Source: Allacma fusca (Eukaryota > Arthropoda > Collembola > Symphypleona > Sminthuridae). Taken from it: a stretch of DNA of 64,000 nucleotides. Positions 4,439 through 43,092 of the stretch are shown piece after piece; the stretch's first letter is position 1, and each line of letters opens with the position of its first letter. A model generated the notes under the pieces. That model was not told where the DNA came from and did no database searches. It was given only the letters and a program-made list of their open reading frames with translations. The translations under genes and the position numbers were made by a program. Location: the NCBI GenBank assembly GCA_947179485.1, contig OX359247.1, forward strand, positions 37,610,801 through 37,674,800. The letters are read 5' to 3'.

Positions 4439-4443
4439 ATAAC
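4439..4443. repeat. Target-site duplication, left copy (ATAAC)
   Basis: ATAAC directly precedes the 5' LTR and is repeated exactly at 12388-12392 after the 3' LTR. Five bases is the usual duplication length for Ty1/copia integrases. A six-base reading (AATAAC) is possible if the last A of the LTR is counted differently. Confidence 0.9.
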
Positions 4444-4891
4444 TGTTGAAAGTTAAGTCATGGCAGAGTTATGTCTGACCATGCACTTTCAGTAATGTTC
4501 CGTTGAGTAATAATAAGTATTGATTACATCTTTGTGTGATTGTGAGATGCTCGGGCAGTAGCTCAGTGTCAGCACTCCGTGACAGGAAGTGCACACACAG
4601 CAAATACCTTAGTTAAGATGTAAAGGGGATTTCACACCTTGTGTTGAAATCCGGGCATGATGTTATTGGGTAATAAACATTTAACCTTTACTTATGATTA
4701 TGAAATAGTCAAGAATGTATGTATGCACTACATTAGGGTGATTATGACATTATGACCGTTGGTCAATAATATAATAATACCATGACATTTCTGTACCTTA
4801 TAAATATGTGTTTAGTTGTTAATAAAGAACAGTCGAAGAACTGATATTGTGAAGGTATAAGCTTCGGTTTTCAGTCTCTTTTATTTCAATA
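4444..4891 (+). repeat. 5' LTR
   Basis: This 448-bp repeat begins TGTTGAAAG and ends TTTCAATA, so it starts with TG but lacks the usual CA end. It contains a TATA-like TATAAATA at 4799-4806 and an AATAAA at 4821-4826, consistent with promoter and polyadenylation roles. It matches the 3' LTR base for base as far as I can read. Confidence 0.95.
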
Positions 4892-5417
4892 CGTTATCAA
4901 CACGCTCAAACTGTACTGTGAATAAATTAGAAATTTGTCGCAGCAACAGTTCTGAGTTCATCAAGTCACTGAAACAGAAAAGTTTTTGGAAAATATTTTC
5001 AAGTTAGTGAAGTAGCAGTCTAGAAAGTACAGTAATTTCGGACTACGGGGGGACAAGTATAAGTGCGAGCAGTGAACAGTTTTCAGTTATTTTTCTCTCA
5101 AAGAGTGAGGATTCGTTCAAACTACAGTCAATTTGTTTCTGCATAACTGAGAAGGTTATCATTAATAATTTTGACTTCGTGAATTCATCGCAAACTGTGT
5201 GTGAAAAACTAGTACAAACTTACTCTCTCACATCACCCCAACCACGACCTTATAGAAACCAACTTTTATTACGAAAAATTACTGAACAATTACTAGCTTC
5301 CGAGAAGGTTGCAGTTAAGGATCAGAATTTGGAAAGTTTTGGTTGTCAAAAGTAAACTAAACATTTTTGTTAAGCGTTCTACAAATTCGAGAAGAATTTG
5401 AGAATTAATAACAATAT
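4892..5417 (+). other. Retrotransposon 5' leader
   Basis: This 526-nt untranslated leader lies between the 5' LTR and the ATG of the polyprotein. The first bases (CGTTATCAACACGCTC) should hold the primer-binding site. They do not obviously complement the 3' end of a common tRNA, so a half-tRNA primer, as used by Drosophila copia, is possible but unproven. A potential splice donor (AAAA then GTAAAC) near 5351 could serve a subgenomic envelope RNA; this is speculation. Confidence 0.6.
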
Positions 5418-8400
5418 ATGTCAGGCAAAGGAACTACACCACCGGTTAGTCCTAACACAGCGAAAAAGCAAGCTCAAGCTCAAGCTCAGAATCAAGGAGC
5501 AGCAGCTAACGCTATTCCAGTCATGGCAAATCAAACTGTACATCGTACGTACAAATTGGATTCGTCAAAATACCCGAAGCTGGCGGGGGCACATAATTAC
5601 CTCGACTGGCGCAGGGCTCTCCACGCAGTTTTTTGTGGAGCAGATATGCAAGATGTAGTATATGGAACTACTCGTTTTCCTTCAACCGGATCGGATGAAG
5701 AAAAGAAAGAATGGCATCGCACGGATATGGCAGCTTATGGAATTATCCTTATGGCCTTGGATAATAAAGCAACTATCCTCACGCGGTCTTGCAGAACTTC
5801 CACTGAAATGTGGAACAAGCTTAAATCAGCTTATGGAGCGTCAAATTCCTTATCATTGGAAGACCTCAAGGATCAATTCCGGGAATTGAAAGTCACCCCG
5901 GATTGTAATGCAATGGAAGTTTTGGAAAAACTCCAGGATTTGCAAGGCTTAATTAACAGCCAATTGAAACCCGGGAAGGGTCCCTTAGACGAAGACGATG
6001 TCATCAGCCAATGCATCCATGCAATGAAGGGCGGATACTATGAAAGTTTCGTCACCATGTGGAGGGGGCAACCTGAGGTTGAACGGACCATGGGAAATTT
6101 CCAATCCCAGTTACGTCTGTTTATCACACATAAACAGTCTGATGCACCATCAGAACGTGCAATGTTCGCCGGGCACCCAAAGGCACAGGGAGGGAATCCC
6201 AAAGCAAATGGGAACAATGCCAACAATGGGAAGGCGAAGAAAAAACCAGGCACCTGCCACAATTGTGGGAAGAAAGGGCACTGGAAAGCAGAATGCCGCT
6301 CAGAGAAAAAAGAGCGTAAGGAGCAAGCCCCGAAAGAGCAAAAGCAGGAGGGCAACAAGGATGAGAAATCCCAAAAGCCCAAGCAACCTCAAGAAATTAG
6401 AGCCTGTATGTTAAGGCCTATTTACACTCCCGGGAAGACAATTGCCCTCAGCTCAACACACTTCAAGCCCTCAACAGGAAGAATTAGGCGCTCCGCATTC
6501 CAATGGGTATGCGACACAGGGGCCTCAGTTCATTTGTGCGGCCAAAAGGACTGGTTCTCAACTTTTGAAGAATTTGCTGAACCTTGGAAGCTCATGGCGG
6601 TAAGCGACAGGCCTGTGGATTGCCCGGGAAGGGGAACCATAGTGCTTGAAGCAAAAGTCCGTGGTCGTTGGGAACCTCTGGTTTTGGATGATGTCATCTA
6701 TTACCCAGGAGGAATAAATCTGTTCTCCGTCGGAACCTACAACAGGTTGGGATACAGATACATGATGGATGGTACACAGTCTGTGTTTATCAACAAGGCT
6801 ACGGGAGAGGAAACTATCAATGCAACTGAAGTGCATGATAAGATTCACATTATGAACTTCCGACTACCAACAAGTTTTCCCAGGGCACTCGCAGTCATCG
6901 GTATTTCAAGGCCAATAAGTCAACGCTGGCATGAAAGGATGGGCCACATGAACTTTGAGTTCCTCCACAAAACCTTCAAAGATGGCGCGGCACACCTCAG
7001 AGAGGACGACCGCATAGAGAAGAAATATAAGTGTGAGATATGTGCCATCACTAAGATGAACAATGAGTCATTCAAAACTCAAACCCATGACAAGCAGTAT
7101 GAGACAGGAGAACTGTTACATGCTGACCTTGTACATGCAGCAGCTACTTCCAACCAGAGATGCAAGTATTATTTACTTGTGAAAGATCATGCCTCAAACT
7201 ACAGGCTGGGATACTTTCAAGTGGATAAAACAGCTGATTGTACAGTCATCAACCTCATTGATGCAGTGAACTTTATTTCCACTCAGACAAAAAATCCCGT
7301 GAGGCGATTTAAGTCTGATAATGGGACGGAATTTAAAAACTCCAAATGGGCCACATTCTGCTCACAGAGAGGAATTGCTCATGAATTTACCCCTGCTTAC
7401 AATCCTCAATCAAATGGAAAGATTGAACGGGAGGTCCAGACCATCACCAAAATGGCTCGGGCGATGTTAGTGGAAGCAGGTCTTGGAGAGAATCACTGGC
7501 AAGATGCAGTAGCTATGGCTGTGTACTTACTCAACCGAGTTTTAAGTACAACCAACACAAAAATGTCACCTATAGAGATGGTGACTGGAAAGAAACCGAA
7601 TCTTTCCCATCTAAGGATTTTTGGATGCCCTGCCATCAGTGGCAAGCAAAAGGATCCGGCAAAATGGGGCAAACAAGGACGCAAGGGCCTTTATGTAGCA
7701 AATGTCCCAGACACAAAGCAGTATAAAATGTGGGATACTGTAAAAAAGGAATATTTTTACACCCGACATGCACTCTTTTATGAGGAAGTAATGACAACTG
7801 ATGCAGGAGTGGGAAAAAATCCTGGAAAGATTTTTCTCGACCAACTCCCGGAAAGCTCAGTTCAGGAGGTTGAAACCATCTCATCAGATGAAGAACCTGA
7901 GGACATCACAATTGTGAAGCAAGTTCAATTTGTGCCAAATCCTCTACATACTCCTCAAATGCCGGCCCAAATTCCAGCTCCTCCGAGCCCTCAGCCCGTG
8001 TTCACTCCAAGATTGACATCCACTCCTGTAAAAAGGACAACGATTCATCCGGCAGGAATTTCTAAAAAGTATAAGGAGACATTAAAGGCGAGAAGCCCTT
8101 CACTCCTTGATACTTTAGCTCCGGAGGAACCACCCAGACCAGAATCACCCATCCCAGGGTGTAGTACTCGACCATCAGCCCCGGTTCAAGTACAAACTGA
8201 TGATCCAGCAGTCGAATCAGATAGTGATGCACTAGTTATTGACGCTGGAAGTGGCAGTCTTGACTCGGAAACAGATTCTGATGAAGAATTTCAGTCAGCA
8301 AACCTAGACTCCACACAGAGTATTCCTCAAGTTTCATGGAATGACCAGATGGAACAATCAATTGAGGAAGAATTAGCTGATGCCTCCAGGGATACAGTAG

Positions 8401-11400
8401 TAATTCCACATGTACAATCTCCTCCTCCAACTCCAGGGGGGAGCAGCAGAGACACTCAGCCTCAAACAGCTCTCAGACGAACGACCAGGACTACAGCAGG
8501 AATACCCGGACCCAAATTTCAGGCCGGATTTTATGTCGGAGTGGATTGTTTTCATGCAGTTGGAAATTGCCCTCCGGAAAAAATCCCTGACAATTACAAA
8601 GTTCCAAAATCATTCAAAGATGTACGCCGTAATCGGTTTAAATTTGAGTGGGAGGAAGCTATGGACCAAGAACATTGCAGCCTCATTGAAAACAGGACTT
8701 GGAAATTAGTCAAACGTCCCCACAATGCAAAACTACTCAGAAATCGGTGGATTTTTGTAGAGAAAAAGTTACCTGACGGGGGGATTCGCAGAAAAGCTCG
8801 CTTAGTCGTCAAAGGATATGGTCAGCGACCTGAGATAGATTTTCATGAAACTTTCGCACCTGTTGTGAGATACGAAACAGTGCGAGCAGTATTTTTTGCC
8901 ATAGCTCAGCAGAACTTACAAGTCATTCAATTCGACGTGAGTACAGCTTTCCTGAACGCTCCTCTAGACGAGGAGGTTTATATGGAACAGCCGGAAGGCT
9001 ATGAAGTTTCAGGAGGGTATGTCTGTAAACTCGAGAAGGGTTTATATGGACTGAAACAAAGCCCTCGGAACTGGCACAAACTCATAAAGGCAAAACTCAT
9101 CTCCCTTGGATTTGTAAAGTCAGCCTATGACTCCTGCCTCTTCACCTACAACAGTGGAAACACACGAATGATACTCGCACTGTATGTAGACGATGGTCTC
9201 CTTGCGGGAAACAGTAAATCCTCAATGGACCTTATAATGAAAGAATTACGAGCCACCTATAAGATGACGTCAACAGAAGACGTGAGGAAATTCTTGGGAA
9301 TGGAAGTCATCATCACGGACACACAAGTTATGCTACATCAAGAAACGTACATAATGGAAGTTGCAAAACGGTTTAGTATGGAGAAGTGTGAAACTTCCAG
9401 CATACCAATGGCCGCTAATCCGGATTTAGATGTAGACATGTTCTCAAAAGATCATGATCCATCACTACCATACCAAGAGTTAGTAGGAGCTCTACTATTC
9501 ATATCAAGATGTACTAGACCGGACATTTCCTTTGCCGTGGGTAAACTGTCCCGCTACTTTCAATGTTACGAGAGAAAACACTGGGATGCAGCCAAAAGGG
9601 TATTGCGGTACCTAGTAACTACTAAGAAGCTAGGACTCTGTTACACTCGCTTGGCGGAAACGAGTTTTAAAGGATACAGTGATTCCGATTATGCTGGGGA
9701 TAAGAAGACTCGGAAGTCTACCTCAGGCATTATCTTCACTCTTAATGACTCACCTCTGCACTGGAAAAGTCAGAGGCAAACCCTCATCGCTCACTCCTCC
9801 ACGGAAGCTGAGTACGTTGCATTGAGCGAAGCTAGCAAAATGGGGGAATGGCTCAGGAACCTGTTAGCTGACATTGACATATACAATGTCACCCTGCCAT
9901 TCACAATTTTTACTGATAATCAGAGCAGTATGAAATTAGCGGCAAATCCGGAATTTCATGACCGGACAAAGCACATTGATGTGCGACACCACTACATCCG
10001 ATGGTTAGTGGAAACAGGGCAAGTAGAGATCAAATACTTACAAACTGGAAGGTTAGTGGCAGATATACTAACGAAGCCACTGGGTCGGCAACAATTCGAG
10101 CCCAAAATGGAATTACTCTCCCTCACTCGGAAACTGACGGTAGACGTAAAGGAACCTGACCAGCCTCAAACCAGCTCACAAGCAGTAAAGAGGGTATGTG
10201 CACTGTCATCACTGTGGAACGTGATACTGTTCATGCTTTTCTTTCCTCTGGTATTTTGCCAAAAATTCCAGGAGGGTAATGCTGTGATTTGGAGACGGAG
10301 CCTCACCCCAGCCATTGAAGGCTATAACTCTGTAGCTATGAGAATTAGCTTAATTTCGCCATGCAAATTTCTCCCGACGGAAGGCCTGACCACAATGGCC
10401 GCGGAGAGAATAATGAAGCAATGCGAGAATCAATATGAGAAATTATTCTTGGAAGAATTGCGGATGGCATGTCCACCAAAGGACACTCGGCTTCAGCGGG
10501 ACAAACGGGAACTCCTTACCCTAATATTTTTAATAATAGTGGTATGTACGGCAAGCGCCGGGATCGGCATTGGACTTTATGCATTACACAAGATCGATAA
10601 ATTGGAAATCACTCAGTTGGAAATTGAGAGAACTATGGATGACCTGGAGGAAAAAGTAAAGATCAACAGCGTCAACTTGGCCAAATTAAAGTTCGAGGTG
10701 GATAAAATGGCTCAGACGATTAACAATTTAATCAATGACGTTCATTTATTCCAAGAAAAAGTGATTGAGATTAATTATCTTGTATCCTACATAACTTCAA
10801 GATTGTTAGTAGGACGGGGGGTAGTACAAGAAACAAGACGGCTCTGGAATAAAAAGAAGATGGACAATAACTTCTTTGACTTCATGAACGTCTCCCTCCC
10901 GTGCGGTCAGGAATGCCCCATCGAATACGCAGAATTCCGTAGATGTTCGTTGGATCGAGAAGATTCCGAACTGGAACTACTTTTTGCGGTACCTGTTATG
11001 AGTAACATGACAGTGTTAGAGGCCGATCCCTTCTACCTAATGCTTAAGGATAAGGATCAGACATGTAAACTGGAATACATAGGCCCTGAAAATGCTCTTC
11101 TCTCACCTGAAGAGGACTGTCTCCGAGCTGTGGATATGAGGAGGGAATCCTCAACTCAGCTGTTTGCCTCTCGCTCAACTGAGTGTATGGAACTGGAAAT
11201 GGCCAAGGACGAGGGCAAATATTATAAGACCCTGCGTTGCCTTCCGAGCAAACCTGGAGATGAGAAAGAATTTGTTCAAGTTAAGACACATAACAACAAA
11301 TTCTATATATACTGCCCTGGAAGGGAGTATGTTAGAGGTGGCGACAAGAATAAAGTGAAATGCCCAAGCAAGGTGTTCACTTTGCCCCTCACAGCTACTT

Positions 11401-11855
11401 TTTCAATAGACAATTTAACTTATCGAGGAGATATTTTAAACTTGATCTATAATGAGAAAGAGGACCCTTTGCTCCACGAGAAGATTGAGTGGCATCTCTC
11501 CCCGGTCGTTAAATGGGATGATTTGAACGAGACGTTCCCGATACTGGAGCCCTTGGACAAAAATCACTGGACCCGTCAAACTGGAGACGAGATGTATGGT
11601 GCTGGATCCTGGATGCTGATAAGCTTGGTACTATTTCTGGCTGGAATCATCGGCGCTTTTATAGGATACAAAAAGTGCAAGAAGGTGCTGAAGCCACGAA
11701 AATTGAGGAGGGCCAAGAGAAGATATCCCAAGGTTGAATCTACACCGGAAACTGAAATGATCGAGCTGGAGCAGATTGGGGACGAGGACATCAATGAAGA
11801 CGTCCCGTCAGCAGCGAAGAAATTTCATCATGTTGAAGAAATTTCCATAGGTTAA
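5418..11855 (+). CDS. Gag-Pol-Env-like polyprotein of copia element
   Basis: This is a 2,145-residue polyprotein. Residues 1-270 form a copia-type Gag with a zinc knuckle (CHNCGKKGHWKAEC, 280-293). The aspartic protease motif DTGAS is at 366-370. The integrase core has D570, D634 and E670, a DD35E spacing, after a WHERMGH pre-integrase motif. Reverse transcriptase has the YVDD active site at 1256-1259. RNase H runs through TEAEY (1462) to DILTKPLG (1549-1556). From about 1600 the chain looks like a class I envelope protein: a signal-like hydrophobic stretch (1600-1617), a furin-type RDKR (1694-1697), a hydrophobic fusion-peptide-like segment (1699-1723), a heptad-rich region (1728-1790), a Cys-rich ectodomain with four N-glycosylation sequons (NVS, NMT, NLT, NET), a transmembrane helix (2064-2084) and a 61-residue tail. 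No stop or frameshift separates Pol from Env. The envelope assignment rests on architecture; I recognise no specific homologue, though the layout is like insect/baculovirus F proteins. Confidence 0.95.
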   Translation: MSGKGTTPPVSPNTAKKQAQAQAQNQGAAANAIPVMANQTVHRTYKLDSSKYPKLAGAHNYLDWRRALHAVFCGADMQDVVYGTTRFPSTGSDEEKKEWHRTDMAAYGIILMALDNKATILTRSCRTSTEMWNKLKSAYGASNSLSLEDLKDQFRELKVTPDCNAMEVLEKLQDLQGLINSQLKPGKGPLDEDDVISQCIHAMKGGYYESFVTMWRGQPEVERTMGNFQSQLRLFITHKQSDAPSERAMFAGHPKAQGGNPKANGNNANNGKAKKKPGTCHNCGKKGHWKAECRSEKKERKEQAPKEQKQEGNKDEKSQKPKQPQEIRACMLRPIYTPGKTIALSSTHFKPSTGRIRRSAFQWVCDTGASVHLCGQKDWFSTFEEFAEPWKLMAVSDRPVDCPGRGTIVLEAKVRGRWEPLVLDDVIYYPGGINLFSVGTYNRLGYRYMMDGTQSVFINKATGEETINATEVHDKIHIMNFRLPTSFPRALAVIGISRPISQRWHERMGHMNFEFLHKTFKDGAAHLREDDRIEKKYKCEICAITKMNNESFKTQTHDKQYETGELLHADLVHAAATSNQRCKYYLLVKDHASNYRLGYFQVDKTADCTVINLIDAVNFISTQTKNPVRRFKSDNGTEFKNSKWATFCSQRGIAHEFTPAYNPQSNGKIEREVQTITKMARAMLVEAGLGENHWQDAVAMAVYLLNRVLSTTNTKMSPIEMVTGKKPNLSHLRIFGCPAISGKQKDPAKWGKQGRKGLYVANVPDTKQYKMWDTVKKEYFYTRHALFYEEVMTTDAGVGKNPGKIFLDQLPESSVQEVETISSDEEPEDITIVKQVQFVPNPLHTPQMPAQIPAPPSPQPVFTPRLTSTPVKRTTIHPAGISKKYKETLKARSPSLLDTLAPEEPPRPESPIPGCSTRPSAPVQVQTDDPAVESDSDALVIDAGSGSLDSETDSDEEFQSANLDSTQSIPQVSWNDQMEQSIEEELADASRDTVVIPHVQSPPPTPGGSSRDTQPQTALRRTTRTTAGIPGPKFQAGFYVGVDCFHAVGNCPPEKIPDNYKVPKSFKDVRRNRFKFEWEEAMDQEHCSLIENRTWKLVKRPHNAKLLRNRWIFVEKKLPDGGIRRKARLVVKGYGQRPEIDFHETFAPVVRYETVRAVFFAIAQQNLQVIQFDVSTAFLNAPLDEEVYMEQPEGYEVSGGYVCKLEKGLYGLKQSPRNWHKLIKAKLISLGFVKSAYDSCLFTYNSGNTRMILALYVDDGLLAGNSKSSMDLIMKELRATYKMTSTEDVRKFLGMEVIITDTQVMLHQETYIMEVAKRFSMEKCETSSIPMAANPDLDVDMFSKDHDPSLPYQELVGALLFISRCTRPDISFAVGKLSRYFQCYERKHWDAAKRVLRYLVTTKKLGLCYTRLAETSFKGYSDSDYAGDKKTRKSTSGIIFTLNDSPLHWKSQRQTLIAHSSTEAEYVALSEASKMGEWLRNLLADIDIYNVTLPFTIFTDNQSSMKLAANPEFHDRTKHIDVRHHYIRWLVETGQVEIKYLQTGRLVADILTKPLGRQQFEPKMELLSLTRKLTVDVKEPDQPQTSSQAVKRVCALSSLWNVILFMLFFPLVFCQKFQEGNAVIWRRSLTPAIEGYNSVAMRISLISPCKFLPTEGLTTMAAERIMKQCENQYEKLFLEELRMACPPKDTRLQRDKRELLTLIFLIIVVCTASAGIGIGLYALHKIDKLEITQLEIERTMDDLEEKVKINSVNLAKLKFEVDKMAQTINNLINDVHLFQEKVIEINYLVSYITSRLLVGRGVVQETRRLWNKKKMDNNFFDFMNVSLPCGQECPIEYAEFRRCSLDREDSELELLFAVPVMSNMTVLEADPFYLMLKDKDQTCKLEYIGPENALLSPEEDCLRAVDMRRESSTQLFASRSTECMELEMAKDEGKYYKTLRCLPSKPGDEKEFVQVKTHNNKFYIYCPGREYVRGGDKNKVKCPSKVFTLPLTATFSIDNLTYRGDILNLIYNEKEDPLLHEKIEWHLSPVVKWDDLNETFPILEPLDKNHWTRQTGDEMYGAGSWMLISLVLFLAGIIGAFIGYKKCKKVLKPRKLRRAKRRYPKVESTPETEMIELEQIGDEDINEDVPSAAKKFHHVEEISIG

Positions 11856-11931
11856 GAATTACTTAATATTTTGGGTTCTTTAATAATTCTGTGTATGTTT
11901 TAATCAATTTTATTTTACAGCAACTTACATT

Positions 11932-11939
11932 AAGGAGGG
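11932..11939 (+). other. Polypurine tract
   Basis: AAGGAGGG abuts the first base of the 3' LTR. This is the expected primer for plus-strand DNA synthesis in an LTR element. Confidence 0.8.
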
Positions 11940-12387
11940 TGTTGAAAGTTAAGTCATGGCAGAGTTATGTCTGACCATGCACTTTCAGTAATGTTCCGTT
12001 GAGTAATAATAAGTATTGATTACATCTTTGTGTGATTGTGAGATGCTCGGGCAGTAGCTCAGTGTCAGCACTCCGTGACAGGAAGTGCACACACAGCAAA
12101 TACCTTAGTTAAGATGTAAAGGGGATTTCACACCTTGTGTTGAAATCCGGGCATGATGTTATTGGGTAATAAACATTTAACCTTTACTTATGATTATGAA
12201 ATAGTCAAGAATGTATGTATGCACTACATTAGGGTGATTATGACATTATGACCGTTGGTCAATAATATAATAATACCATGACATTTCTGTACCTTATAAA
12301 TATGTGTTTAGTTGTTAATAAAGAACAGTCGAAGAACTGATATTGTGAAGGTATAAGCTTCGGTTTTCAGTCTCTTTTATTTCAATA
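11940..12387 (+). repeat. 3' LTR
   Basis: This is the second copy of the 448-bp repeat, starting TGTTGAAAG and ending TTTCAATA. It is followed at once by the right ATAAC target duplication (12388-12392). It begins 84 bp after the polyprotein stop codon. Confidence 0.95.
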
Positions 12388-12392
12388 ATAAC

Positions 12393-14110
12393 CATACAGG
12401 AGCTATAGATAACTAAAATTTTCAGAGGGTAACTATACATAATTAAGCTGTTGATTGTGCATATATAATGTCTTGATAATTTTTCCTTCTAAAAAATCTC
12501 AACAGATACTCAACACCCATCATCAATTTCATGTTTGATAGCAGTACCATTAATATATTTACAGTAAGCTCGTAATAGCGATAGCAAAGTCATGTGCGTA
12601 GGCTTTACACCGCTAGAGATTATCTCATATTTTAGGGCAAAGGGGTCTGTGTGTATATTTTGGAAGAACTGTCAATTTTAGATTGTAAATACAAACAATT
12701 TACAACTTCATCCCCGTCACGGCCTTAATGCGACGGCATGATTGGTTAAATTAAATGTAAAGGAAGAATACATATATATTAAGTAAACATAATTAGCATT
12801 ATTACACATTTTAACCTTATATTGGGGTTATATCTCTCACTGGAGGACGAGAAATCCTAAAAACAGCACGTCTGAATGCCCTGGTATGTAATTGCAATGC
12901 ACTATCTTTATTTTAATTTAATTTTTGAATATAAATACACTCCTGTGAATTATATGGTACTTGGAATTGTGACATCTGACATCGTCCATGACTTTATCAA
13001 ACCAAAACAAATGAGTTACAGCTTACAGCTTCTAAATCGTAGAGCTACAACAATTTTGTTAGTAAATCATTGTTTTATCAATCGGGAAATATCTGAAAGT
13101 GCATGAAATTTCTCCGGAGGCTATAAACACTTCATTTAATAGATAGGTATGTTTCACCTGCGTAAAAAACTTAAACGTGTAGTGTAAAAATCCGAATTAA
13201 GATGTAAGTTTTTTAGCTTTGTAAAATTCGGGTAGAAGCTTGCGTGTGTGCGTTCGTGCGGCTATCCGTTGGTCCGTGACGTGTTTTGATGTAATTATTT
13301 GGACAATAGTTGCTTGTCAGTCATCATTTGGTGTCTTTTTATATTCCCTGATTATTTGTATGTTTAACTGCTGTTATAAAATGCAGGTCATGTTTATTCG
13401 TGCGGTCGGCCGTGCGTCCGTCGCACAACTTTACTTATTAAAATTGGCGACAGCTTTTGAAGTTATAAATGGCTGAATGGGGTACATTTTTGAGTTAGAC
13501 AGGAATAATGCTTTTAAGTTATGGTTGGGGCCGGTTTTTGGGTTATATGCATAGTGGCGAGTTTTAGGATAATTAGTAGAGGGAGTTATACTGCGTTGGA
13601 AATGGGGGAACCTTATGTGTTAGTGATAGGGGGAGCAGGGGCAAGTTTCTAGGCAAAAGTTTTTAGTTTAAGTTAAGCGTTTAAGATAGGAATAAGAAAA
13701 TAGCTGAAGCTACATACCGAGGTTACAGATAGGCGGGGGAGATATTTGTTTATTTTAGTTTTCAATTAGCAATAATCGCATCTCGGTAAAACCTCATTGA
13801 TTACGACACTGTCCCTGCCAACGCTTTTTTTAATAAAATTTATAAGAATAAAGGATTTAAAGAAAACTCGAATCGGAGCATAAACCCCACATTATTATTA
13901 TTTTTGTTTATTTTAAGTTAGGAATACGGAAATCGTTTTCGGTTTTCAATTAGGATAGAGAACTTTATGCTTTTGGTGTTGTGTTGGGGTAGTGTTTTAA
14001 GAAACGGGTTTTCAACAAGCAGCAACTTTTTCCGCTCGACTTCTAATGTCTCTATTCGATTACATACCAGTACAGTGGCACCGTTCCACGAACGGCTGTT
14101 AGAATAGGCT
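12393..14110. other. Intergenic, no supported gene
   Basis: The region is AT-rich. Open frames such as 12876-13106 and 13240-13476 show no recognisable domain. About 13,490-13,740 is G/T-rich with loosely repeated GTTA and GGGG words, similar in flavour to a block at 53.56-53.98 kb. I cannot assign it a function. Confidence 0.5.
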
Positions 14111-15530: not shown

Positions 15531-16030
15531 GTGACCTATGCATAGTAATGTTTGAAGGCAAAAATACTACTCATTTTTATTAATTGTATTCAGAATCACA
15601 ATTGTAGCAACGTAACGAGATAAGTTAAAATCAGGTTTATGATTATTTTGACTTACTGTTCATAGAATGAGTGGGCTCCGCTGGTATAATCATATTATTG
15701 AGTCTTACAATTTGTGATTCACATAAGTATGAAGAAAATTACATACTTGTAGAAGGATTTCGCATACGGAACATGTCTAGGAAAAATTATCAAATTATTT
15801 TTTGGTCAAATTTTTGGTATTCTCATTTAAGTTTCAAATTTGTTCAGCTTTCATTTGTCAAAGATTTTTGTCCAAGACAATCTTTGGGTAATATAAGGTT
15901 TGATTTTAGTCAACTAATGATTTGCATCCCGGTAGGGTTGACTGTAACCATGGACACCTTGTCAGTTCAAAACATTCAAGTTTCTTGCGCTATAATAAGT
16001 GTATGTGAAGAGGCTAGCTAACAGTTTAAT
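15531..16030. other. Spacer between elements, nothing recognised
   Basis: An open frame at 15671-16021 (plus) has no recognisable motif. I see no RNA gene or splice structure. Confidence 0.4.
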
Positions 16031-16308
16031 CTCAAATCACTCCAAAAGTTTGCATGTCTCGTTATCGAATGATTTATTACCCACGGCTCCTCCCGTAAAA
16101 AATTGACCCATCCATACGCGCGAAAATCGTATCGCAATGTTTTTCCATTGCGAGAGCAAAGGATTTCTAGATCAATAGATTTCTATCGCAATGGAAAAAC
16201 ATTGCGATACGATTTTCGCGCGTATGGATGGGTCAATTTTTTACGGGAGGAGCCGCGGGTAATAAATCATTCGATAATGAGACATGCAAACTTTTTGAGT
16301 GATTTGAG
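16031..16308. repeat. 278-bp near-perfect palindrome
   Basis: Two arms of about 120 bp are inverted copies with few mismatches. The left arm starts CTCAAATCACTC and the right arm ends with its complement. The best-matched core includes CCCATCCATACGCGCGAAAA and CGTATCGCAATG in each arm. About 35 bp of unmatched sequence lies at the centre, around AGCAAAGGATTTCTAGATC. I found no convincing target-site duplication. It could be a foldback MITE or a hairpin-RNA locus. Confidence 0.9.
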
Positions 16309-16817
16309 AGTACACCCATTTTTATTATAATTTGACCACGTAACACGAAATTATACGACAAGTGGTAGGATTTACATAAAATTTTACGCTTGCCGTGATA
16401 ACTTTTGACGAGGAATACCAATTTCTATATTAGTTTTATACACGGTTTATATTTTCAAGAATTGGTTAATTTCAGAATGTTCGTTTTAATTATCATTTCA
16501 CCTGTCACTGGTGGGGAGACCAGTTTTTATGTACTCAGCCCTGGGAAAAACACGCTAATAAAGTCAAAACTTGGATTGGATTAGATTTCCGTGGAATTCA
16601 CTTATACAGATAAAAAGGGAAAATATAGTATTGGAATATCCATTTACAATTTACAATACATATAAAACGGGCTCCAACATTAATAAAAAGTACCATTTAA
16701 TGCAGACAAGTGAGCAAGCCAATACCTGGAACCCCTTGTCGCAATGGTATATTGTAAAGTAAACTGTGACATACACCTCAGCATTGATTTTAGTTATTTG
16801 GAGAAGACTGCCAACTG
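16309..16817. other. Spacer, nothing recognised
   Basis: AT-rich sequence between the palindrome and element C. No gene, RNA or repeat structure is visible. Confidence 0.4.
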
Positions 16818-16825
16818 CCACAAAG

Positions 16826-17714
16826 CAGAGCTTCTGCCGGGGACGGGGACGGGACGTCGGGACACTGGACGGACCGGGACGGGACGTCCCCGGGGACAAA
16901 ATAATTGTCCCCATGTCGTAATCGGGACGGGACGGGGACAAAAAAATTGTCCCAATTATATTCGGGACGGGACGGGGACAAAAAAAATTGTCCCCATTAT
17001 ATCAGGGACGGGACGGGGACAAAACAAATTGTCCCCACTATATTCGGGACGGGACGGGGACAAAAACAATTGTTCCCATTATATTCGCGACATGCTTTTT
17101 GGTCGTGTATATAACGTGACGGGACGAGCAAGCATAGCAGAACAAGGATAACGTTTGAGCTTTAATGCTCATGAGTAAACTATTCTGTGAACACTATTTC
17201 ACCGAATGTAAGACATTCGATTTTAGGTTGTAGAAAATGAGGCTTGTTGCTCAAAAAATTCAGGAAGAATCTTGAAGCCACGATTCTATAAATGTGTTTT
17301 TATGTGTTTGGTATAAATATTGTTTGTACGAAATTTTCCTCATGTTCCGATTTTCGGTATGAGAATGTCGACAACTGTTTTCAGTAATTATCGGGACGGT
17401 ACAGGAATTTTGTTCACATGCCACGATTTTCGGGACCGGGGACAATATTTTTTTAATTTTGGGGACGGGACGGGACAACGTTTTTTAAAAATTTTGGGGA
17501 CGGGACGGGGACAAGATTTTTGTCCCCATGTCCCGACTTTCGGGACGGGACCGGGGACAACGTTTTTAAAATTTTTTGGGGACGGGACGGGGACATGGTT
17601 TTTGTCCCCGTGTCCCGATTGACGGGACGGGACTGGGGACAAAGGTTTTTAAAAAATATCGGGACGGGACGGGACGGGGACGGGACAATAATTTTGTCCC
17701 CAATAGAAGCTCTG
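16826..17714. mobile_element. hAT-type MITE 'C' (GGGACGGGAC motif)
   Basis: This 889-bp element has ends CAGAGCTTCT / AGAAGCTCTG and the exact 8-bp duplication CCACAAAG at 16818-16825 and 17715-17722. Each side carries an array built on GGGACGGGACGGGGACA. On the left, units of roughly 50 bp end in small hairpins such as GGGACAAAAAAATTGTCCC. The centre (about 17,100-17,380) is unrelated AT-rich sequence. No transposase is encoded. Confidence 0.9.
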
Positions 17715-25900: not shown

Positions 25901-29834
<3,934 letters not shown>

Positions 29835-41773: not shown

Positions 41774-43092
41774 ATGTCTCTCCTTGTAGTAACTGCCTTC
41801 ATCGTAGATCTCCTGATTCAGTCTCCGGTTCCAAGTGAGTGGAATTTAAATAAAATTAATGGTTTAGAAAATGTTAAGTATCAATAACAAACAACAATAA
41901 TAATAATAATAGCAACTTCAACCCAATAGTAAATTTGTAATAGCAAATATCTTAAAAATTAGGAAGCAGGATGAGTGAACATCACCTCATAATGCTCAGA
42001 CAATTAAAATAAAGCAAATGTCTAATGACTTTGCTTATAGCAAAAGTACAGATACATTCTAAAAATTTTGTAAAGCAGCAAAAGTAACATTACAAAAATT
42101 TAAATGAAAGAATTTGGCTGCTTATGTTGGCCTGTAGATTCGGACTAGTTCAAATTGCTAAAATTTTGTTTTTATGTCTTGTACCAGTTCCAGTTCCCAT
42201 AAAGGTAGTGCAACCTCAAATACCGGAAATTCCTATGGTTACAACTTCCAGACCTCGCCCAGCTGTCAAACCATTTGTAGTGGGAGGTGTACAAGTTGAC
42301 CAGCACCAGTTTCCTTTCATGGTCAGTCTCCAGTTCCGAGGAGAGCATTTCTGTGGGGCTGCAATAATTGGCCCTAATCACATTGCCACAGCTGCCCACT
42401 GCCTCGTAGATTACCCCTTGGAAGAAGTTACAATTGTCGCTGGAAAGCATGACCTTTCCCTTGATGAATCTACAACCCAGATTCGTCCCATTGATGGCAT
42501 TAGTGATCATGAGAAATTCAATCCGTATTACAAGACAGCATATGATTTGTCTATTCTGACTACAAACGAGCCTTTTATTTTTAATCACGCCGTTCAAGCC
42601 ATAACCCTATTTGGGGCTTTTGATGAAGAAGGTAATAATCTAAAATTTCATTTTGCTGACCTTAAATTTAGAGAATTTCAAAAAAAAAATTATTTCTTGA
42701 AATTATTGTAAGTAACTAATAAAAATACTCCTTTGATGTCAGGTGAAGCCACAACAATTGGCTGGGGAAAGCTGGATGAAAATGATGACGACTCTGCTTT
42801 GCCAAATATTTTGAACAGTGTCAATGTTAAAGTTTTTTCTTCACAAACCTGTGACTTCATTTATGGTAATTGTGCGGATTGCCCTACCTACCTTCCGGAA
42901 GCGATGCTATGTGCGGGAAATAAAGATCTTTCGGGGGGCAAGGATGCTTGTCAGTACGACTCCGGCGGTCCTTTAGTAATTAAGCGGGACGGTGTCAACT
43001 ACCTGGCCGGAGTGGTTTCTTGGGGAGTGGGATGCGGGAGGGCTGAGTATCCTGGAGTGTATGCCAGAATATCCACATTGTTAGGTGGTTAA
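41774..43092 (+). CDS. Trypsin-like serine protease homologue, probably impaired
   Basis: Exons 41774-41834, 42188-42631 and 42743-43092 give 284 residues with a signal peptide encoded in exon 1 ([14 protein letters not shown]). The chymotrypsin fold is clear. The triad is present as TAAHC (H91), YDLS (D140) and DSGG (S242), and D236 at the S1-pocket position suggests trypsin-like specificity. Three features are odd. The residue two before the catalytic Ser, normally the oxyanion-hole Gly193, is Tyr (CQYDSGG). The activation site reads KPF/VVGG, not Arg or Lys before IVGG. The protein also stops at ISTLLGG, while the expected C-terminal helix continues in another frame as VRWLKYVI near 43,080-43,110, as if one base had been lost. 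It is either a serine protease homologue or a decaying gene. An intact paralogue lies 1.1 kb downstream. Confidence 0.88.

Follow-up and report, generated by a model that had tools for sequence, protein, structure and literature searches.

The 64,000-nucleotide stretch of the Allacma fusca genome considered here (assembly GCA_947179485.1, contig OX359247.1, positions 37,610,801 to 37,674,800 of the forward strand), called the window and numbered below from its first letter, contains at positions 4444-12387 a complete and apparently recently inserted Ty1/copia long terminal repeat (LTR) element. The single open reading frame (ORF) of this element runs in frame past RNase H, and its last 550 or so residues are envelope-like. 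The most likely explanation is an old capture of an F-type class I envelope, a predicted fusogen, by an animal Ty1/copia lineage.

The element is regarded as complete and apparently recent because its two LTRs of 448 bp are identical and a 5-bp target duplication flanks them. The features of the element outside the envelope domain are as follows.

4439-4443 (no strand), target-site duplication ATAAC, 5' copy
4444-4891 (+), 5' LTR, 448 bp, same as the 3' LTR, starting with TGTTGAAA and ending with TTTCAATA
5418-11855 (+), Gag-Pol-Env ORF, single and uninterrupted, 2145 codons, stop codon at 11853-11855
5625-6065 (+), copia-type Gag, Retrotran_gag_2, E 2.4e-13 (Pfam)
6249-6299 (+), CCHC zinc knuckle, zf-CCHC (Pfam)
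6504-6593 (+), Pol_BBD match with a DTGA motif, the protease region being labelled by motif
6879-7058 (+), GAG-pre-integrase domain, gag_pre-integrs (Pfam)
7104-7406 (+), integrase core, rve (Pfam)
7584-7793 (+), SH3-like retroviral polymerase domain, SH3_retrovirus (Pfam)
8691-9413 (+), reverse transcriptase of the Ty1/copia type, RVT_2, E 3.7e-63 (Pfam)
9414-10124 (+), RNase H region, placed by alignment with the copia reverse transcriptase and RNase H of other elements, with no Pfam match of its own
11932-11939 (+), polypurine tract AAGGAGGG, directly before the 3' LTR
11940-12387 (+), 3' LTR, 448 bp
12388-12392 (no strand), target-site duplication ATAAC, 3' copy

The LTRs, the short target duplication and the polypurine tract are those of a Ty1/copia element, as are the RVT_2-type reverse transcriptase (RT) and the order Gag, protease, integrase, RT and RNase H along the ORF (Pfam; RNase H by alignment). 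A copia order of domains had been proposed in a preliminary description of this DNA, made from its letters, and the Pfam matches fall in that order. RNase H has the motif DILTKPL close to its end, and the right end of the LTR is TA instead of CA. An errantivirus would carry a gypsy RT and the order RT, RNase H and integrase; here the integrase lies ahead of RVT_2, and RVT_1 was matched only at E 0.045. The assignment of the element to copia (Pseudoviridae type) is firm.

The preliminary description had also described an envelope-like continuation of the same ORF. The frame is open to its stop codon, and every part then named, from the signal-like stretch to the basic tail, was recovered (row counts refer to the alignment of relatives treated below).

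10212-10259 (+), hydrophobic signal-peptide-like stretch inside the polyprotein
10260-10508 (+), F2-like N-terminal subunit with three conserved cysteines
10497-10508 (+), furin-type cleavage site RDKR
about 10509-10586 (+), hydrophobic fusion-peptide-like segment directly after RDKR, with an SAG core in 17 of 24 rows
10671-10850 (+), heptad region resembling heptad repeat A (HR-A), a long helix in the models
10887-11534 (+), cysteine-rich, mostly beta region with four N-glycosylation sequons (N-X-S/T) at 10887, 11004, 11412 and 11526
about 11610-11672 (+), transmembrane helix
11673-11852 (+), basic cytoplasmic tail

Relatives and predicted fold of the envelope domain

Relatives were gathered by three protein searches, one of which scored the 7997 candidates with the most words in common, and an Env profile was then run over the 136 collected proteins, whose labels are P-numbers; the counts of relatives are lower bounds, one search contributing the best 120 of 1524 matches. 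The Env domain was found in at least 28 proteins, namely the window's own piece and at least 27 relatives, and in 17 of these relatives the domain shares its polypeptide with copia RT and/or RNase H. Eight relatives (P0019-P0024, P0026 and P0036) are continuous gag-pol-env proteins of 1824-1949 amino acids (aa) with Gag, integrase, RVT_2 and a nearly full Env profile. Six of the 27 relatives bear a species name, Allacma fusca (P0009, P0014, P0018), Folsomia candida (P0010, P0028) or Orchesella dallaii (P0025); all six are Collembola and represent two orders, Symphypleona and Entomobryomorpha. The Env identity to the window descends to 21-55% among the relatives, P0036 and P0043 being distant ones (177 and 113 bits with the Env profile). 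Separately, the plant records P0027, P0029, P0030 and P0032 (Centaurea, Mikania) were seen to have two copia RT-RNase H regions each, some in pieces, and such doubling in plant gene models may raise their protein-search scores.

Comparison of the aligned envelope domains showed that the features listed above are conserved beyond what chance would leave. Of the 24 rows that reach the site, the window counted, 22 have the cleavage motif [RK]-x-[KR]-R, which is absent in P0016 and P0019, and 18 have the stricter form R-x-[KR]-R. Twelve of the 14 cysteines in the aligned part of the window's domain are kept in nearly all spanning rows, the exceptions being C149, within the fusion segment, and C526, within the transmembrane helix, and P0036 and P0043 lack three of the conserved twelve. 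The hydrophobic periodicity of 3.5 residues in the heptad region was equalled by 29 of 5000 shuffles, and when 22 rows were tested with 1000 shuffles each, no row had more than 52 that scored as high, P0025 being the weakest.

At the level of sequence the domain has no convincing match in Pfam or in single-sequence comparison with the PDB. Ten env members gave no envelope family in Pfam beyond CoV_S2 (E 0.011, one member), and no baculovirus F or errantivirus Env family occurs among the 25 of 26 matched Pfam families listed for the ten members. Glycophorin_A (1.1e-4) and TMEM154 (0.0024), matched by one member each, were dropped as weak. No relative was found in the viral contigs searched.

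The fold was examined on two AlphaFold models of moderate confidence (predicted local distance difference test, pLDDT, 68 and 72). In the Foldseek comparison with the PDB all 50 rows listed were paramyxovirus or pneumovirus F for both models (best E 1.6e-8 and 6.1e-9), a first rank obtained in a PDB whose content of baculovirus and errantivirus Env structures was not checked. In BFVD 28 fold matches were found at E<=0.001 (best E 7.5e-11), including baculovirus F, glycoproteins of the arlivirus/lispivirus type, paramyxovirus F, fish retrovirus Env, torovirus spike and others, a mixture that singles out no donor virus. The F-fold alignments have about 7-14% identity, low global TM-scores and no significant match at the sequence level. 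The overall F fold is seen in models of moderate confidence and at these low TM-scores; a polybasic site stands immediately ahead of a hydrophobic segment, and an HR-A heptad helix follows the fusion peptide, the start of the heptads being modelled at low confidence. The region before the transmembrane anchor, at the position of HR-B, was modelled as short helices with pLDDT mostly <50. The predicted fold is that of a viral class I fusion protein, F type; a fold other than that of a viral fusion protein, which the preliminary description had named as an outcome against its proposal, was not obtained.

Common history of envelope and reverse transcriptase

The RT phylogeny asked for in the preliminary description was computed from 56 RT-RNase H rows, 17 env rows and 39 others picked by hand, P0012 (RNase H only) being excluded. 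Sixteen rows, namely 15 with env and P0040, formed a supported group (98/88). P0040, from Folsomia, has an RT nearly identical to that of P0022 and is probably a cut copy. The envelope tree, from which P0034 was excluded, has main groups that match those of the RT-RNase H tree, and the window's nearest neighbours in it are the three Allacma fusca proteins P0009, P0014 and P0018. For the 14 elements with both parts, the envelope and RT-RNase H identities are correlated (Spearman 0.85, 91 pairs), none of 5000 permutations reaching so high a value. Since the identities correlate and the trees agree in their main groups, the envelope has been carried by this pol for a long time. The preliminary description had proposed an independent capture of env in the element. 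The capture is old and lineage-wide, not particular to the window's copy, and the independence stands only to the extent that Pfam shows no link in sequence with the Env of gypsy or of baculoviruses.

P0036 and P0043 stand apart, being clustered in the RT-RNase H tree with four env-less proteins (95/91). Their envelope might therefore have been gained separately from that of the main clade, env being mobile between copia lineages by two captures or by exchange, an alternative that we consider unlikely but the most serious of those weighed here. On the RT-RNase H tree the env label requires three changes, all forced by starred branches, and a single change sufficed in none of 200 bootstrap trees. 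One of the three changes, however, is owed to the cut protein P0040, whose position beside P0022 illustrates that an env-less protein may be merely truncated. Moreover, the monophyly of the env rows with P0040, a group defined after inspection of the tree, was not rejected (p-AU 0.236), and the agreement of envelope and RT distances also argues for one history.

Possible synthesis of Env and surroundings of the element

No break occurs between RNase H and env in the window and in the eight long relatives, and hence part of the Env is presumably made as Gag-Pol-Env. The ribosome would yield either this polyprotein or an Env that is spliced or internally started. A methionine lies close to the end of RNase H in many relatives, not in all, which makes a separate Env start possible. 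The Env part would be directed to the endoplasmic reticulum by the internal hydrophobic stretch, a kind of signal known from other virus polyproteins, and could be released from RNase H by signal peptidase and the protease of the element. A furin-like host protease would then cut the glycosylated and trimeric Env at RDKR, giving a short F2 and an F1 that stays anchored in the membrane. The hydrophobic N-terminus of F1, now exposed, would enter the membrane of the target, and the HR-A helix would refold and so power fusion. In this manner particles could exit their cell and enter a different one, as in a passage from soma to germ line. What is proposed here for cleavage, processing, trimers, fusion and cell-to-cell transfer is deduced from the predicted F fold.

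Splice sites were scored with simple consensus matrices (donors at 4880-12200, acceptors at 8400-11800). No prominent donor was found in the leader, where the best, AGA|GTGAGG at 5102, holds rank 11 for the whole element; the donor-like CCG|GTTAGT at 5442 (rank 7) lies just within gag. Within the acceptor scan no strong acceptor was found just ahead of env. The scoring points neither way with regard to retrovirus-like splicing of env. The highest-scoring donor-like sequence, GCG|GTAAGC at 6597, is situated where the gag/protease region ends. Between the env stop codon and the 3' LTR, at about 11919 and beyond the scan, inspection by eye showed TTTTACAG, which is rich in pyrimidines and resembles an acceptor. 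With these two candidate sites a spliced gag RNA could be formed, reminiscent of the one in Drosophila copia.

Outside the element, no further copies of its LTR or proteins were found in the 64-kb window (E<=1e-3). Some 1.3 kb past the downstream end of the element there is a match to the U4 spliceosomal RNA gene (13701-13825, minus strand, 67.7 bits against a gathering threshold of 46). Further on are an inverted repeat at 16024-16315 (136-nt arms, 20-nt spacing, 95% complementary) and tandem repeats at 16899-17091 and 17472-17635, with 41-nt and 82-nt units and common GGGACGGGGACA-type motifs. Two exon-like ORFs with AAA ATPase domains (26314-27448, minus strand; Pfam AAA and AAA_lid_3) belong to what we take to be a p97/VCP-type gene, and an ORF at 42124-42711 (+) has a trypsin domain (Pfam, E 1.8e-24).

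Alternative readings and significance

The envelope could be real and derived from an F protein and yet no longer serve for entry, having instead an intracellular role such as membrane targeting, vesicle-mediated egress or a block of superinfection in an element that is transmitted vertically. The single history of Env and RT is what strict vertical co-descent would give, and the full cleavage motif is missing in P0019 and P0016. However, the cleavage site with its adjoining hydrophobic segment, HR-A and the anchor have been kept at Env identities to the window of 21-55%, and such retention of the parts specific to fusion is hard to account for without fusion; we therefore regard a purely intracellular role as improbable. 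The capture of a host membrane protein gene, which the preliminary description had considered as confined to this copy, is rejected as exceedingly improbable, given that the domain occurs in at least 27 other proteins, that copia RT and/or RNase H is present in 17 of the 17 env-bearing relatives of >=714 aa, and that the predicted fold is a viral F, even though ten relatives lack RT in the same protein (these are non-informative, with 275-570 aa, and P0005 among them opens with the RNase H end LTKALP) and three of the ten, P0009, P0010 and P0018, are Env-only gene models whose contigs measure 4 kb to 3.5 Mb and whose surroundings are not visible.

The preferred reading is that of a complete, apparently recent Ty1/copia element, belonging to a lineage whose named members are springtail ones, in which the end of the polyprotein is a class I F-type fusion glycoprotein that functions as proposed; we assign it a probability of roughly 0.8. 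A wider proposal seems to us fairly probable, if held with distinctly less assurance: an old animal lineage of Ty1/copia retroviruses that bear an envelope and are potentially infectious, at least springtail-wide and with a second, more divergent branch, would have captured an F-type fusogen independently of gypsy, BEL/Pao and the plant sireviruses, and would produce its Env by means of an internal signal in one Gag-Pol-Env polyprotein.

Pseudoviridae are described as having no extracellular phase and plant sireviruses as possessing env (PMC8515867), and a 2017 review gives plant SIRE as the sole copia-group case of env so far, the Drosophila copia elements being without it (PMC5408687). The element shares with the sireviruses (SIRE-1 and its kin) the Ty1/copia pol with an envelope-like product downstream, as these sources describe it. 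The sireviruses, however, are restricted to plants and have env as a third ORF, whereas here env is in frame with Gag-Pol in a single ORF; the named hosts of the relatives are springtails and the predicted fold is that of an animal-virus fusogen, so that the distinctions are those of host, ORF layout and predicted fold. Unlike the gypsy errantiviruses of insects, which have a Ty3/gypsy RT, the element has RVT_2 in copia order, and no Pfam link joins the two kinds of envelope. Drosophila roo, as outlined in the review, likewise combines one ORF with an env gene, but its pol is BEL/Pao and its env homologous to that of errantiviruses (PMC5408687).

Captures of env by errantiviruses and Anakin are catalogued in PMC12440569. 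Among bdelloid rotifer retroelements TelKA is described as having an envelope nearest to the paramyxovirus class I F; it is placed there among the retrovirus-like LTR families of rotifers (PMC5408684), and the likeness is one of description. The domain resembles the F proteins of paramyxoviruses, pneumoviruses and baculoviruses in its predicted fold and in the succession of its parts, which runs from F2 through the cleavage site, fusion segment, HR-A and beta domain to the transmembrane helix; unlike them it forms part of a retroelement polyprotein, the identity being about 7-14% with no significant sequence match. No earlier animal copia element with env was found among the matches listed in the open-licence literature (titles and starts of abstracts; Repbase not searched). 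While the capture of env is a known process, an animal copia lineage with a putative F-type fusogen fused to Gag-Pol appears to be new within that literature.

If the proposal is true, all three superfamilies of LTR retrotransposons would have gained fusogens in arthropods, and the copia core would be combinable with an entry protein. The copia group, regarded as intracellular, may thus have gained passage from cell to cell in animals, and, given a copy that is intact and apparently recent and relatives known by name from springtails, the exit of copia from the cell by its own envelope becomes testable.

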